A model generated the notes under the pieces. That model was not told the origin of the DNA, ran no database searches, and saw only the letters and a list, made by a program, of their open reading frames with translations. From Desulfatibacillum alkenivorans DSM 16219 (GTDB taxonomy: Bacteria; Desulfobacterota; Desulfobacteria; Desulfobacterales; Desulfatibacillaceae), in contig NZ_FQZU01000003.1 in assembly GCF_900142135.1 (NCBI RefSeq), forward strand, positions 186,001 through 250,000: a stretch of DNA of 64,000 nucleotides. Direction: 5' to 3'. Numbering within the stretch: position 1 is the first letter of the stretch; each line of letters starts with the position of its first letter. Positions 48,288 to 56,589 of the stretch are shown piece by piece. The translations under genes were made by a program, and so were the position numbers.

Positions 48288-49568
48288 ATGGCAGACAGCC
48301 CAAGCAAACCATCCAAGCTGGATGAATCGTTTCTGGCGGGCCTCGCCGACTTAAAAAAAGTCGGCCGCTACGAAATTATCTATAAGATTGGGCAAGGAGC
48401 CGCAGGCATTGTGTATCTGGGGCGCGATCCCTACATCAAACGGTACGTCGCCATTAAGATCTCCCGCCCCACCTCCGAACGAGGCAAGGAGCGCTTTTTT
48501 GTGGAAGCCCAGTCCGCCGGCCGCCTGAATCATCCAAACATCGTGGCGGTTTACGACCTGGGGGTTTATAACGAATTCTGCTACATCACCATGGAATACG
48601 TGGAAGGCCACACCCTGGAAAAGGTCTGCCGCGCCAAAAAGCTCCTGCCTCCCCGCCAGGCCCTGGAAACCATGTTTTCCGTGGTCAACGCCTTTGATTA
48701 CGCCCACAAGGAAGGCATCATCCACCGGGACATCAAGCCCTCCAATATTATGGTGGACGTCATGGGCAACGCAAAAATCACGGATTTCGGCACCGCCCAG
48801 ATGACCGAGGAAACCTCCGAAATGGGCATTTGGGGCACCCCCAGCTATATGTCTCCGGAGCAGTTGCAGGAAGAAGACGTAGGCCCATTTTCCGATATTT
48901 TCTCCCTGGGCTGCGTATTTTACGAAATACTGACCGGCAAGCAGGCTTTTCCCGGCAACAACAATTTTTCCATCATGTACAAGGTCACCAACGAAGAGCC
49001 GCCTCCCATCTCTACTATTCGTAAGGACCTGCCTCCGGCCGTGGATCAAATCCTGAAAAAAGCCCTGGCCAAGAAAAAGCAAGACCGCTACCAAAGCTGC
49101 ATGGACTTCGCCTACGACCTCAAGTTCGTGCTCCGGGGCCTGGGCCATTCCCGCGCTCCCAAAAAGGACAAGGTTCAGGACGCCATAGACTTCATCCACA
49201 ACGTGCCTTTTTTCCGGAATTTCACCAAAGGGCAGGTGGCTGAGGTGGCCAATGTTGGGGAAATCCTGAAGTTTGAAAAAGGACAGGACATCGTCAAGGA
49301 AGGGGAGATTGACGACCACTTTTTCATTATCTTGTCCGGCCGAACGAAAATATCAAAAAACGGCCAGCAGGTGGCCGTGCTCAGTTCCGGAGAATGCTTC
49401 GGCGAAATGGCTTTTATCGCCTGCCAACCCCGCGTAGCCACGGTCACGGCTGACACCGACTGCATGCTCATGCGCATTTCCGCCACATTGTTCGACCGTT
49501 CGCCCCCGCCCGTCCAACTCCGTTTTTTCAAAAATTTCGCAACCATCCTGGTCCGCAGATTCTCTTAA
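48288..49568 (+). CDS. Ser/Thr protein kinase fused to a cyclic-nucleotide domain
   Basis: 426 residues. The kinase (24-290) has IGQGAAGIVYLGRDP, catalytic Lys in YVAIKIS, HRDIKPSNIM, metal Asp in DFGTAQ and SYMSPEQ. From 305 a CNB domain has FEKGQDIVKEGEIDDHFFII and a phosphate-cassette stretch SSGECFGEMAFIACQPRVATV; the Arg expected to hold the cyclic phosphate is present. No signal or span is seen. Binding of cAMP, cGMP or cyclic-di-nucleotides would couple second messengers to protein phosphorylation. It follows the methylase gene by 36 bases and a second kinase, with HDOD and GAF, lies 1.7 kb away. Confidence 0.93.
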   Translation: MADSPSKPSKLDESFLAGLADLKKVGRYEIIYKIGQGAAGIVYLGRDPYIKRYVAIKISRPTSERGKERFFVEAQSAGRLNHPNIVAVYDLGVYNEFCYITMEYVEGHTLEKVCRAKKLLPPRQALETMFSVVNAFDYAHKEGIIHRDIKPSNIMVDVMGNAKITDFGTAQMTEETSEMGIWGTPSYMSPEQLQEEDVGPFSDIFSLGCVFYEILTGKQAFPGNNNFSIMYKVTNEEPPPISTIRKDLPPAVDQILKKALAKKKQDRYQSCMDFAYDLKFVLRGLGHSRAPKKDKVQDAIDFIHNVPFFRNFTKGQVAEVANVGEILKFEKGQDIVKEGEIDDHFFIILSGRTKISKNGQQVAVLSSGECFGEMAFIACQPRVATVTADTDCMLMRISATLFDRSPPPVQLRFFKNFATILVRRFS

Positions 49569-50297: not shown

Positions 50298-51230
50298 ATG
50301 AGCGGGAAAATCGTGCACACGGTGACCGGAGCTTTTGGATTTTCGGGGAAATATATAGCTCAGCGGCTATTGGACGACGGGTTGATTGTCAATACTCTCA
50401 CCAACTCTCCAGACAGGGACAATCCCTTTCATGGTCGAATTACGGCGGAGCCTTTCAATTTTGCCAAACCGGATCTCCTAACCAAATCATTGGAAGGAAC
50501 CCGGGTTTTGTACAACACCTACTGGGTGAGGTTTAATCATAAAACCTTTTCCCATCAGGAGGCCGTTAAAAACACTTTGGCTTTGTTCAACGCGGCGAAA
50601 CAAGCTGGCGTGGAGCGTGTCGTCCACGTAAGCATCACCAATCCTTCCGGCGAGCATGGGCTGGAGTATTTCCAGGGCAAGGCTGAGTTGGAGCAGGCCT
50701 TGACTGAGAGCGGCTTGTCTTACGCCATTTTGCGGCCCGCCGTTTTGTTCGGGAGAGAGGACATCCTTATTAATAACATCGCCTGGATGTTGAGGCGATT
50801 TCCTGTTTTCGGAGTGTTCGGAGACGGCGAGTACAAGATTCAGCCCATTTATGTGGACGATTTGGCTGCATTGGCGGTGGAGCAGGGGAAAAGCAGGGAT
50901 GATGGGATTATTGAAGCCATCGGCCCTGAGACCTTTACGTACAATCAGCTTGTCCGAGAAATCGGAAGAATAATAACAAAACCCAGGCCTCTGCTTCACA
51001 TCTCTCCCGCCTTGGGATTTACAATCGGCCGATTGGCCGGACTTGTTCTGCGCGACGAGGTGATCACCAAAGAGGAAATCAAGGGCCTGATGGCCGGAAC
51101 CCTTGCCGTGAACGCCCCTCCGGCGGGCGCCACCCGTTTGACGGCTTGGGCTGAGGCCAACAGGGACAATCTGGGAAAGCGATACGCCAGCGAACTGGCT
51201 CGCAGGCGTGACCGACGCACGGAATATTAA
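50298..51230 (+). CDS. NmrA-like atypical short-chain dehydrogenase
   Basis: 310 residues. The N-terminal dinucleotide motif is TVTGAFGFSGKYIA (GxxGxxG form), with downstream VVHVSITNPSGEHGLEYFQGKAELE in place of a YxxxK-type active site, and QPIYVDDLAALAVE near the C-terminal half, as in NmrA and NDUFA9-like proteins. Such proteins bind NAD(P) and often act as redox sensors or reductases of small molecules. It is co-transcribed with the GbsR-type regulator. The extension after 260 is positively charged (ARRRDRRTEY). Confidence 0.85.
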   Translation: MSGKIVHTVTGAFGFSGKYIAQRLLDDGLIVNTLTNSPDRDNPFHGRITAEPFNFAKPDLLTKSLEGTRVLYNTYWVRFNHKTFSHQEAVKNTLALFNAAKQAGVERVVHVSITNPSGEHGLEYFQGKAELEQALTESGLSYAILRPAVLFGREDILINNIAWMLRRFPVFGVFGDGEYKIQPIYVDDLAALAVEQGKSRDDGIIEAIGPETFTYNQLVREIGRIITKPRPLLHISPALGFTIGRLAGLVLRDEVITKEEIKGLMAGTLAVNAPPAGATRLTAWAEANRDNLGKRYASELARRRDRRTEY

Positions 51231-51257: not shown

Positions 51258-53702
51258 TTACCTTGAATGACGAATGGCCATGACGGCCTGGTTGCGCAGG
51301 GTTTTGATGTAGTTGTGGTGCTCGCCGCCGATGACCACGCCCGGCTGCTCCCGGTCCATGTAGAACATGCCGATGCATTGGTTATTGACCACCACGGGGT
51401 ATAGGGCGAAAGCGGGCGCCAGGACGGCGTCAATATACCATTTGGGCAGCTTGCCCTTTTCGTGCAGTATTTTTATGTCGTCGATCCTGATGTCTTTTTT
51501 TTGTGCGACGCAAAGCTGGAACACATCCCTGGGGTTATTGGGGGCGCCCACGTCAAAGCTGAATTTTTTAAGCAGATTGTCCATGTCCAGGCCAAAGCCG
51601 AAACGGGCGGTCATCGTGGTTTTTGTATTGTTCATGACCGCAAACAACACCCGTTGAAAGCCAAAACCCCGATACATGGTTTCCAGCACCATAAAAAGCA
51701 TGTCGTTGAGTTTGTACTCCTCCAGCATGGCGTTGGTGATTTCCTGGATGCCCGTGATCAGCACGCTTACCTGCTCCTGGGTCTCGGAGAGGGAAGGCTC
51801 CTGGAGGGGAGCGCCGGCCAAAGGCGCGGCGGGAAGGTCGCCAGGAACGGCTTCTGCAGCCGGAACGACCGTTGCAATGCCGTCATCTTCAATAGCTTTG
51901 ATGAAAGGGCTTTTTTGAACGTCAATGCCTAAGATATTGGCGTATTTTCCGATCATATCCTTGGCGCCGTGCAGCAGGCCCTCAATCTTTTTGGTGGAAA
52001 GGGGAACGCTTTTTTGGTAGCGGCGGGCTATGCCGTCCAGAATTTTTTTTCTGTCGTTTCCTTTGGAATTGCTCACAGCCTCGCAGACCTCATTGGAGAG
52101 ATTGGCTAGGTTCCGCAGCATTTCCTCCGGGGTTTTGGGGCGATCCACATTTCCGGGCGGCAGGGTGCGCAGGGTCTGGACGATTTTATCCGGGAACTTC
52201 CAGTTTTTAGCCACGGCCATGCCAAGTTCTTCAAAGGAGACGCCCAGAATGGATTTGGAGGCGTGCTTCTCGCTAAGATCCTTTTGGATCATCCGTTTTT
52301 TGATTTCGTCATACTCGTCAGGCAGATAAAAGGCGGCCAAATGCCTGCCCAGATTGTGCAGCATGGCGCAGACCAGGGCTTCTTCCACGCCCTTCATCTG
52401 CATGCTGTCTCCAATTTCCTTGGCGATCATGCCGCTCATAAAAGCCTTCACGGAAGCGTCCTTCAGGTCCTCACGCTGGCTTTTGTTCTGGATGTGATCG
52501 AAAAGCATGAGGCTGGCGGCGGCCATGCGGACTTCTTCAAAGCCCAGAACCACCACGGCGCGGCTGACAGTGGTTATTTTGCCGGCGAACTGGCCGTAAA
52601 AGGCGGAGTTGACCAAACGCAGGAGTTTGTTGGTCAAGGAAAAGTCTTTGAGAATCACCCGGGAAAGGTCGGCTGCCGAGGCCATATTATTGCCGGCCAT
52701 GGAGGCTTTTTTGTTGATCTCAATGACATTGGAGGAAAAAGTCGGGAAATCTTTTTTGTAGCGCATGCGTTTCAGAATGAACTCCACAGCGCTGTTGGTT
52801 TCCGGATCCCCGCCCAGGCCATGCCCGTCTTCGTCGGATTTCAGCCAGGCCTCCAAATCCACTTTCATGTCATCGGCGGAGGAATATCTGTTTTCCGGGG
52901 CTTTTTCCAACGCTTTCAGCACAATGCGGTCCAGCTTGTCGTCTACATTGGAGTTGATGGAGGACGGCTTGGGCGGCGTTTCGTAGGCAATCTGATACAG
53001 CACTGCGTAGGCGTTTTGGCCGGAAAAGGCAGCCCTGCCGGTCAGCATCTCAAACAGGATAACGCCCAGGGAAAAAATGTCCGCCTGGGGGGTTAAAGGC
53101 CCTTCAACCCCATGCTCGGGAGACATGTAGTTTACTGTGCCGGCCATTTGGCCGGATTGGCTCTTGGCGTCGTTCATCATGATGGATATGCCGAAATCCA
53201 TGATGCGCGGCGTGTCGTCCTCCTCCACCATGATGTTATTGGGACTAAGGTCCTTGTGAATAATGCCGGCCTTATGCGCGCTGCCAACCCCGGCAAGGAT
53301 TTTAATCATCAGGTTGACCGCCCGAGAAACCTTCAACGGCTTCTCCTTGGCGAGGATTTCCTTTAGGGGTTTCCCTTCTATATGCTCGAACACGAGATAG
53401 GGGCGATCCCCATGCGACCCGGCCTCATACAAGGGGGCCACATTGGGATGCTTCAACTTGCTGACGGTTTTGGCTTCCTTGATAAGCCGTTCCCGTTTTT
53501 CCAGGCTGATATTCCGGTATGCATCCAGGGTTTTTATGGCGACTTCTCTGCCAAGATTGGGATCCTGGGCCAAATAGACGACGCCCTGGGCGCCTTTGCC
53601 TAAAACTTTTAAAATTTTAAAACGGCCAATTTTGACTTGAGTCCCCTGAGCAGGGGTCCTGTCTTTTTTATAGCCGGATCCATTGGCGGCGGCAGATTGC
53701 AT
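51258..53702 (-). CDS. Ser/Thr kinase-HDOD-GAF fusion
   Basis: 814 residues. Kinase (23-290): LGKGAQGVVYLAQDP, VAIKTLDA, HKDLSPNNIM (Lys in place of the usual Arg before the catalytic Asp), DFGIS, NYMSPEH. HDOD (about 315-520): Asn/Ala-rich helices with LVNSAFYGQFAGKITTVSRA and VLGFEEVRMAAASLMLFDH, as in HDOD sensor proteins. GAF (about 650-800): LNDMLFMVLETMYRGFGFQR, MDREQPGVVIGGEHHNYIK. It has no span. An HDOD domain joined to a kinase and a GAF sensor suggests control of a cell-state decision by a small ligand. It is leftward, ending 28 bases from the NmrA-like gene. Confidence 0.9.
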   Translation of the reverse strand: MQSAAANGSGYKKDRTPAQGTQVKIGRFKILKVLGKGAQGVVYLAQDPNLGREVAIKTLDAYRNISLEKRERLIKEAKTVSKLKHPNVAPLYEAGSHGDRPYLVFEHIEGKPLKEILAKEKPLKVSRAVNLMIKILAGVGSAHKAGIIHKDLSPNNIMVEEDDTPRIMDFGISIMMNDAKSQSGQMAGTVNYMSPEHGVEGPLTPQADIFSLGVILFEMLTGRAAFSGQNAYAVLYQIAYETPPKPSSINSNVDDKLDRIVLKALEKAPENRYSSADDMKVDLEAWLKSDEDGHGLGGDPETNSAVEFILKRMRYKKDFPTFSSNVIEINKKASMAGNNMASAADLSRVILKDFSLTNKLLRLVNSAFYGQFAGKITTVSRAVVVLGFEEVRMAAASLMLFDHIQNKSQREDLKDASVKAFMSGMIAKEIGDSMQMKGVEEALVCAMLHNLGRHLAAFYLPDEYDEIKKRMIQKDLSEKHASKSILGVSFEELGMAVAKNWKFPDKIVQTLRTLPPGNVDRPKTPEEMLRNLANLSNEVCEAVSNSKGNDRKKILDGIARRYQKSVPLSTKKIEGLLHGAKDMIGKYANILGIDVQKSPFIKAIEDDGIATVVPAAEAVPGDLPAAPLAGAPLQEPSLSETQEQVSVLITGIQEITNAMLEEYKLNDMLFMVLETMYRGFGFQRVLFAVMNNTKTTMTARFGFGLDMDNLLKKFSFDVGAPNNPRDVFQLCVAQKKDIRIDDIKILHEKGKLPKWYIDAVLAPAFALYPVVVNNQCIGMFYMDREQPGVVIGGEHHNYIKTLRNQAVMAIRHSR

Positions 53703-54128: not shown

Positions 54129-54938
54129 ATGAGCGGAAAAAAAAGCACGGTAGACATTTACAAACTGCTTGAAAAATCCAATTGCAGGGAATGCGGATAT
54201 CCCACATGCATGGCCTTTGCAGCGGCTGTTTTTCAGGGCCGAAACCACCTGAGCGACTGCCCTCGTTTGGACCCGGCCGTGGCCGAGGCTGAAGGCGGGG
54301 CTCCGGCCAAAACCGTAGATCCCAGCGAGGAAATGAACAAAGCCCTGGAGGAGTTTCGGGCGCAAATGAAGGATGTGGATCTTGAGGCCAGGGCCAAGGT
54401 CCTTGGCGGACGCTACGCCAACGGCCGGTTGATCCTTAAAATCCTGGGAAAAGACTTTGGCGTGGACAACGCGGGCAAAATCCATACAGACATCCATGTC
54501 AACCCCTGGGTGGCGGCGCCATTTTTCGCCTACGTGCTTCAGGGTCAGGGGGTGGAGCCCTCCGGGGAATGGATTTCCCTGCGGGAGTTGGAGGGAGGGC
54601 GGCCCTTATATGGCTTGTTCGTCCAAAGGGTTGAACAGCCCATAAGAAAGGTGGCGGACGCCTATCCCGATCTCTTCGCCGACATGGTGGACCTTTTCGG
54701 CGGCAAGGAGGTTGAACCGGCATATCAATCGGACATCTCCGTGGTCCTGCAGGTTTTGCCCAAGGTTCCCATTATGGTTTGCTACTGGAGGCCGGAAGAC
54801 GGCATGGAGTCCAACTTCAACCTGCTTTTTGACGGCAACGCAAACAAAAACCTCCCGACGCAGGCTTTGTACACCCTGAGCGGAGGCCTTGGGAACATGT
54901 TCGAAAAGCTGGCTTTGCGCCATGGCGTGGCCGTATAA
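54129..54938 (+). CDS. Fe-S-binding DUF3786-type protein
   Basis: 269 residues. The N-terminus has C19, C22, C27 and C44 (CRECGYPTCMAFAA, then CP), the 4Fe-4S pattern also found at the N-terminus of the corrinoid/Fe-S subunit of acetyl-CoA synthase. The remaining 200 residues are a DUF3786 domain, with GLFVQRVEQPIRKVADAYPD and VPIMVCYWRPEDGMESNFNL. The role is unknown; the family is common in anaerobes of this group and is likely redox-linked. GGGAG precedes the ATG. It is followed by a hairpin terminator. Confidence 0.85.
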   Translation: MSGKKSTVDIYKLLEKSNCRECGYPTCMAFAAAVFQGRNHLSDCPRLDPAVAEAEGGAPAKTVDPSEEMNKALEEFRAQMKDVDLEARAKVLGGRYANGRLILKILGKDFGVDNAGKIHTDIHVNPWVAAPFFAYVLQGQGVEPSGEWISLRELEGGRPLYGLFVQRVEQPIRKVADAYPDLFADMVDLFGGKEVEPAYQSDISVVLQVLPKVPIMVCYWRPEDGMESNFNLLFDGNANKNLPTQALYTLSGGLGNMFEKLALRHGVAV

Positions 54939-55332: not shown

Positions 55333-56589
55333 ATGAAGAAGGTGTTGCTGGTGGAAGACAGCCCCTTGTTTGGGGATACTGTCAAAGCCGCCATAGAGGA
55401 CGAGTTCGAGTGCCGGGTCATGTGGGCCCAAACCATGGCCGACGCCCAGGCATTGCTTGAGAAGCACAACGGCGATTTTTGCGTCAGCGTTTTGGATTAT
55501 AACCTGCCGGACGCCTCGGATGGCGAGATTCTGGACTGCGTCCTGGCCTGGAACGTTCCCTCCATTGTTTTTTCCGGAATTTTTGAGGATGACGCCCGGG
55601 ACTTTATCTGGTCCAAGAGGGTGGTCGACTACGTCCTCAAAGGCGGCCCCGAAAGCATTGAGTACCTCATTTCCCTGATTCGTCATATTTTTCACGCTCG
55701 AGAAACCAAAGTTCTGGTCGTGGACGACTCCCGGGTTTTTCGGGCCATGGCCTCGGAACTGCTTTCGGTGAGGCAATACCAGATTTTTCAGGCGGAAAAC
55801 GGCCGGGAAGCCTTGGAGATTATGCAAGAGCATCCGGACATCCGCATGGCGATCATAGACTACTACATGCCGGAAATGGACGGCATAGCCCTTACCAATG
55901 AGTTGCGCAGGCGCTACAACCGGGATCAACTGGCCATCATTGGGGTGTCTACGGAGGGCGGCGGCATGATTTCCGCCCAATTTATCAAAAGCGGCGCCAA
56001 CGACTTTTTGAACAAGCCTTTTTTAACAGAGGAATTTTATTGCAGAATCACCCAGAACATCGATTTGCTGCGGCATATCAAACGGGTTAAGGAGCTTTCC
56101 AGCCGGGATTACCTGACCAACCTGTTCAACCGCAGATCCTTCTTTGAATACGGCCAAAAACTCTATGCCTCGGCGATGCGCGATCAAACGGTCATTGCCG
56201 TAGCCATGCTGGACGTGGATGAATTCAAAAGCGTCAACGACTCCTTCGGCCATGATGCGGGGGACGAGGTGCTTAAAACCGTGGCCGACACCCTCATGGA
56301 GTCTTTCCGGGAAACCGACATCGTCTCCCGATTCGGCGGGGACGAGTTCTGTATAATCATGGCGAATCCCGACAAAAATGAAATGCCCGCGCTCCTGGAG
56401 AGGATCCGCACGGCCGTAGAGAATAAATACATAGAAGTGGACGGCCAACAGGTCAATGTCAGCATCAGCGTGGGCGCCTGCACAGAGCTATGCGACTCCC
56501 TGGACATCATGATCAAGAAGGCGGACCAAATGCTGCGGCAGGCCAAATGTGCAGGTAAAAATAATGTGCAACTGGTTACTGCGTGCTAG
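55333..56589 (+). CDS. Double-receiver diguanylate cyclase (REC-REC-GGDEF)
   Basis: 418 residues. REC1 (1-115) has VLLVEDSPLF and the phospho-Asp in SVLDYNLP; REC2 (127-245) has VLVVDDSRVFR and IIDYYMPEMDG. The GGDEF domain (about 255-418) carries the active GGDEF motif (RFGGDEFCI) and an upstream inhibitory RxxD site (RETD). It should make cyclic-di-GMP under control of two phospho-receiver inputs. No histidine kinase is adjacent. GAGGAA precedes the ATG. It is convergent with the TetR gene. Confidence 0.93.
   Translation: MKKVLLVEDSPLFGDTVKAAIEDEFECRVMWAQTMADAQALLEKHNGDFCVSVLDYNLPDASDGEILDCVLAWNVPSIVFSGIFEDDARDFIWSKRVVDYVLKGGPESIEYLISLIRHIFHARETKVLVVDDSRVFRAMASELLSVRQYQIFQAENGREALEIMQEHPDIRMAIIDYYMPEMDGIALTNELRRRYNRDQLAIIGVSTEGGGMISAQFIKSGANDFLNKPFLTEEFYCRITQNIDLLRHIKRVKELSSRDYLTNLFNRRSFFEYGQKLYASAMRDQTVIAVAMLDVDEFKSVNDSFGHDAGDEVLKTVADTLMESFRETDIVSRFGGDEFCIIMANPDKNEMPALLERIRTAVENKYIEVDGQQVNVSISVGACTELCDSLDIMIKKADQMLRQAKCAGKNNVQLVTAC

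Follow-up and report, generated by a model that had tools for sequence, protein, structure and literature searches.

How might a protein kinase be controlled when its catalytic loop is non-RD and it shares one chain with an HDOD domain and a GAF domain? The question is raised by a gene in the 64,000-nucleotide stretch of Desulfatibacillum alkenivorans DSM 16219 analyzed here (the window), where an exact ATG-to-stop frame on the minus strand (51258..53702, stop codon included) encodes a protein of 814 aa, P0001, which is the G000 chain in the genome comparisons. Read from the N-terminus, and with every coordinate on the minus strand, this protein comprises a protein kinase domain (residues 29-276, 52875..53618), an HDOD domain (residues 320-512, 52167..52745), a region between HDOD and linker that is alignable across the HDOD-GAF family (residues 516-600, 51903..52157), a variable Ala/Pro-rich linker (residues 601-645, 51768..51902) and a GAF domain (residues about 646-814, 51261..51767). 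When a named genome collection was searched with P0001, three loci were returned and the sole full-length relative was an 83% identical ortholog from Desulfatibacillum sp. MAG7 (L043 and L014, treated as one record; genome G001 in the comparisons). Between these two proteins, the HDOD-to-linker region is 81% identical and the linker about 52% (residues 600-645). A sequence-only reading of this DNA had placed kinase, HDOD and GAF sensor in one chain, and a domain search puts the first two far above curated cut-offs, with Pfam PF00069 (Pkinase) matching residues 29-276 (E 1.1e-48, 166.4 bits against a cut-off of 31.7) and PF08668 (HDOD) matching residues 320-512 (E 3.3e-41, 141.4 bits against 22.9). 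Separate genes or a frameshift at the fusion are ruled out, as kinase and HDOD occupy a single frame in 10 other genomes. Structure prediction from a two-row input gave a pLDDT of 30.

How secure is the GAF domain at the C-terminus? Full-length P0001 yields no match to PF01590 (GAF) at E<=0.01, residues 634-814 alone reach E 0.17 and 12.8 bits, under the cut-off of 22.4, and residues 640-814 alone match zero Pfam families at 0.01. An over-reading was considered on the strength of these negative single-sequence tests, but the family profile recovers the domain and makes it secure: PF01590 is found at E<=0.01 in 27 of 42 aligned family members (best 1.2e-9; the alignment took 42 of the 50 rows of the HDOD-GAF tree described below), and the 42-row profile matches PDB 3oov_A with E 3.2e-18 across 159 positions. 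The PDB entry name of 3oov_A is putative methyl-accepting chemotaxis protein, and we take 3oov to be a GAF structure. In the HDOD domain, the alignment column that holds the HD pair reads HN in P0001 (LHNLG). HDOD domains are described, in the available text of two sources, as kin to HD phosphohydrolases that generally lack their activity (PMC6543031, PMC4114195).

The kinase domain has StkP and PknB as its best PDB matches (E 1.7e-48), and its motifs can be followed along the minus strand from the glycine-rich loop LGKGAQGVV (residues 34-42, 53577..53603) and the beta-3 lysine K57 in VAIK (53532..53534) to the catalytic loop HKDLSPNN (residues 149-156, 53235..53258), the DFG motif (residues 169-171, 53190..53198) and the activation segment, which has SPE at its end (residues 172-196, 53115..53189). 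The catalytic loop reported by the sequence-only reading is present, and the same eight residues recur in the ortholog; in both proteins, Lys rather than Arg precedes the catalytic Asp, a non-RD arrangement in which the charge is kept. Ser stands at the Lys168 position (R165, D166, K168, N171 and D184 follow what we take to be PKA numbering), as it also does in another kinase of the same genome (HRDISPPN, L010), and myxobacterial and RIO-type kinases have similar loops. P0001 retains the beta-3 Lys K57, the alpha-C Glu E76, the catalytic Asp D151, the catalytic Asn N156 and the DFG Asp D169. In the available text of PMC12599244, a pseudokinase is defined by loss of the beta-3 Lys, the HRD Asp or the DFG Asp, and P0001 has all three.

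Are these features common to proteins of this architecture? Whole-genome searches with the part of P0001 from the HDOD to its end covered 843 Desulfobacterota genomes (handles G000 to G842) and found a kinase ahead of HDOD in one chain in at least 11 of them (G000, G001, G138, G210, G597, G697, G731, G767, G828, G832 and G834), a lower bound because the large searches scored no more than the top three candidates of each genome, at strict E-values; a chain in G621, cut at a contig edge, was excluded from this judgement. HDOD-GAF is kept in 10 of the 11, G697 having no GAF in frame. The R165 position holds R in seven fusions, K in two, L in one and P in one, and HKD is restricted to the two Desulfatibacillum-type genomes, so that a non-RD loop is a trait of two genera and not of the kinase-HDOD-GAF architecture. 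Replacement of Lys168 is the more general feature: ten of the 11 fusions carry another residue (S in seven, N in two, G in one), with K only in G697. The loops read HRDLKPSN in G697, HRDLSPxN in five genomes and HRDIGPAN in G828. Further losses are concentrated in G138 and G210, which belong to another genus of the same order and are 44-45% identical over HDOD-GAF; their loops are HLDLNPSR, with NFG, and HPGLNPSE, respectively. D166 and the alpha-C Glu are lost in G210, D184 in G138 and N171 in both, while K57 is kept in 11 of 11 fusions, and the Pfam kinase scores are 108 bits for G138 and 95 bits for G210, compared with 166 bits for P0001 and 177 bits for L070. By sequence, the kinase of this genus is classed as a pseudokinase. 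The sequence-only reading had named as grounds for abandoning its proposal that close relatives lack residues a kinase needs; this is found in part, in G138 and G210, but all of these residues are kept in the same-genus ortholog. Among plasmid records, 979 matched and none spans 80% of the query (15 rows inspected).

Did the fusion arise once? In a kinase tree of 42 rows (L010, L011, L012 and duplicates omitted), the 11 fused kinases form one clade with support of 100/100, and for this reason a single origin of the kinase-HDOD fusion, with real boundaries, is most likely. An origin of the fusion from the neighboring gene for a kinase with a cyclic-nucleotide-binding domain is not supported, the fused kinases being a separate clade. 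The HDOD-GAF tree has 50 rows, 40 of them without a kinase in the chain (38 alone and two beside a kinase gene); its fused rows require three changes, compatible with one gain followed by losses, and the argument for a single origin therefore rests on the kinase tree. Dropped before the 50-row tree were L043 (treated as the same record as L014), L062, L067, L075/L093 (the same gene, at a contig edge), L074 (GAF out of frame), L068 (no GAF aligned), the incomplete L077, L088 and L091, and L118 (split between two frames); L100, a different cut of L075, did not enter the set. HDOD-GAF-like frames, alignable to query residues 306-783, also occur on Burkholderiales megaplasmids, with no annotated kinase gene within 5 kb at the two loci inspected. 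Because these frames and 40 of the 50 tree rows carry HDOD-GAF with no kinase attached, the HDOD-GAF module likely predates the fusion. At one of the two inspected loci, on a Variovorax SRS16 plasmid (L150:3163-6407), the HDOD-GAF-like gene begins within an upstream EAL gene.

The fusion gene stands alone in the window. Its downstream neighbor, a gene for an NAD(P)-epimerase (50298-51230, plus strand), is convergent with it and is not in the same G001 interval, and so was gained or lost within the genus. The next upstream gene with a Pfam match, encoding an FeS and DUF3786 protein (54129-54938, plus strand), is next to the fusion in G001 too, and a REC-REC-GGDEF gene (55333-56589, plus strand), two genes from the fusion, is likewise retained there. 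Beyond the epimerase gene lies a separate, convergent gene 1.7 kb away (48288..49568, plus strand) for an RD kinase (HRDIKPSN) with a C-terminal cyclic-nucleotide-binding domain; it is also beside the fusion in G001 and is possibly related to it in function without being part of it. In G025 and G089, an unfused HDOD-GAF gene is followed directly, on the same strand, by a kinase gene of this second type whose lineage is separate from the fused clade, and these pairs are a second, independent pairing of kinase and HDOD-GAF. This gene order is seen at L102:7531-10511 and L103:6597-9564, where the kinases have the non-RD loops HLDVKPAN and HLDIKPAN.

What, then, could the fused protein do? We hypothesize that a single event placed a PknB-like kinase ahead of an older HDOD-GAF module, and that this module sets kinase activity or partner choice, an explanation to which we give about an even chance. 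The GAF domain would bind or sense an input, the HDOD, without the catalytic HD pair, would serve as a non-enzymatic relay or docking part, and the two would jointly act on the kinase. The kinase would probably be the allosterically controlled output and, with K57, E76, D151, N156 and D169 kept, is predicted to be catalytically equipped, so that the Desulfatibacillum-type protein would probably transfer phosphate. Its non-RD loop may reduce its reliance on activation-loop phosphorylation and increase that on HDOD-GAF. In the genus of G138 and G210, within the same order, HDOD-GAF has stayed intact next to a kinase that turned into a pseudokinase, and from that intactness we infer that HDOD-GAF carries the indispensable function. 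In favor of the hypothesis are the single clade of fused kinases, the closely conserved HDOD (97% identity between G000 and G001) and the second pairing in G025 and G089. Several observations count against it, among them the loop replacements considered below and the three changes that the fused rows require in the HDOD-GAF tree. A kinase gene is directly adjacent in only two of 12 neighborhoods of unfused HDOD-GAF genes (in G234 it is ~3 kb away), and the HDOD-GAF gene of G795 (L117:1459-3075), which is 44% identical to P0001 and sits in the same unresolved part of the HDOD-GAF tree as the fused rows, has no kinase in frame, so that the kinase would be dispensable there; a secondary loss of the kinase in G795 is possible.

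An alternative hypothesis is that the P0001 kinase is already mainly non-catalytic, a pseudokinase-like scaffold that binds nucleotide or protein and stands one step before G138 and G210. With Lys168 replaced in ten of the 11 fusions and Arg replaced by Lys in P0001, which lacks both residues, the kinase may have little or no activity, and the relative conservation of the domains points the same way. Between G000 and G001, the HDOD is the best-kept part of the chain (97% identity against 80% for the fused kinase), and for the neighboring RD kinase domain the identity between these genomes is 90%. The kinase/HDOD protein-distance ratio is 1.10-1.60 in all 15 pairs of six RD members, compared with 2.47 for G138/G210 and with 8.0 for G000/G001, a value that owes partly to an unusually conserved HDOD. 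The kinase/GAF ratio is likewise raised, from 0.78-1.18 in RD pairs to 1.69 for G000/G001 and 2.64 for G138/G210. These ratios were substituted for dN/dS, which taken alone is a weak indicator of kinase relaxation for G000/G001: there the kinase value of 0.044 (interval 0.034-0.099) is very low and speaks against a scaffold, though with dS near 3 it is saturated. For G138/G210, the kinase dN/dS of 0.349 (0.246-0.492) exceeds the 0.145 of the HDOD and is nevertheless well under 1, which argues that this looser kinase is retained for something. Moreover, the mean distances of G000 and G001 to RD members are 0.74-0.79 against 0.59 for the kinase and 0.60-0.61 against 0.47 for the HDOD, a rise that is about proportional in the two domains, and the beta-3 Lys, HRD Asp and DFG Asp by which pseudokinases are recognized (PMC12599244, available text) are kept in both Desulfatibacillum-type proteins. 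We regard a scaffold as unlikely, and as the strongest of the competing explanations.

A further hypothesis is that P0001 is an ordinary PknB-type kinase that autophosphorylates its activation segment, with HDOD-GAF as an accessory sensor and the R to K change of minor effect. The sequence-only reading had argued the opposite, that the kinase is probably switched on by some means other than the usual activation-loop phosphorylation. Its architecture and non-RD loop stand, but this step is not well supported, since seven of the 11 fusions (one without a GAF in frame) are RD and the architecture therefore does not imply non-RD regulation. Nor is it disproved, since RD status and acceptor residues do not track together in the fusion family: the P0001 activation segment contains Ser181, Ser183 and Thr189, the last two also present in the ortholog, and the RD relatives G597 and G767 have no Ser/Thr between the DFGxS motif and GT. 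The effects of HRD-Arg changes elsewhere are mixed; in the available text of PMC3223231, R to C has almost no effect in Src64, and yeast PKA retains about 10% activity after R to A. The charge-keeping substitution, the shared Ser183 and Thr189 and the RD majority favor an ordinary kinase, but activation segments poor in acceptors in several relatives, the nearly family-wide replacement of Lys168 and the rarity of non-RD loops otherwise in these genomes (30 HRD and two HLD among 32 distinct non-fused kinase domains, which were selected for their resemblance to the query, with two further rows lacking a readable loop) make it improbable. Slightly less probable still is that the HDOD reads cyclic-di-GMP and the protein couples it to phosphorylation, which would be compatible with our preferred explanation as its input and is favored by the retained REC-REC-GGDEF gene, the EAL overlap in Variovorax SRS16 and the binding of cyclic-di-GMP by the HDOD protein SadB, not assigned to its HDOD (PMC6543031, available text), but of six flanked fusion neighborhoods outside the genus, checked by homology to window genes, only that of G210 has a receiver-like gene, ~3 kb off.

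The hypothesis of a single fusion to an older HDOD-GAF module can be extended. The loops can be placed in the order HRDLKPSN, HRDLSPxN/HRDIGPAN, HKDLSPNN, and then HLDLNPSR with NFG and HPGLNPSE, and we suggest, tentatively and with less conviction than the hypothesis itself, that this is a natural kinase-to-pseudokinase series within one single-origin fusion. The protein would then be an HDOD-GAF signaling device whose kinase is giving up catalysis for an allosteric or binding role, with P0001 at the tipping point. The way kinase residues are lost by degrees, next to a conserved HDOD-GAF core, is more informative than the non-RD loop. Among the relatives, the same architecture comes with comparable kinases, some active-looking and others broken, so that the role of HDOD-GAF can be examined both in the presence and in the absence of phosphotransfer.

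How does this protein compare with known systems? HDOD is a bacterial signaling domain of unsettled mechanism (PMC6543031, available text), and fusion to a kinase would give its HDOD-GAF input a measurable output. In the open-licence PMC literature, to which the search was confined (subscription journals and domain databases lay outside its scope), nothing was found linking HDOD with 'threonine protein kinase', or an HDOD domain with a protein kinase and GAF, and the word HDOD was not found in the available text of the bacterial pseudokinase review PMC12599244. PknB/StkP-type Ser/Thr kinases resemble P0001 in the kinase domain, as its best PDB matches, and P0001 differs from them by the non-RD loop, the change of Lys168 to Ser and the attached HDOD and GAF; against the NCBIfam Stk1/PASTA equivalog NF033483 it scores 289 bits, below the cut-off of 450 and over the kinase part only. 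SadB, GsmR and DVU0330 share with it an HDOD in a signaling protein, and GsmR, like P0001, is without an intact dyad (PMC6543031, PMC4114195, available text), whereas SadB has a YbaK-like partner domain and DVU0330 and GsmR are response regulators. The HDOD-GAF proteins of Desulfobacterota and Burkholderiales align with it end to end through the HDOD, middle region and GAF, but have no kinase in the chain. The pair of G025 and G089 places kinase and HDOD-GAF next to each other on one strand, yet as two genes, with a kinase of another lineage and a cyclic-nucleotide-binding domain. Finally, G138 and G210 resemble the bacterial pseudokinase families in being without a defining catalytic residue, whereas P0001 lacks none of them (PMC12599244, available text).
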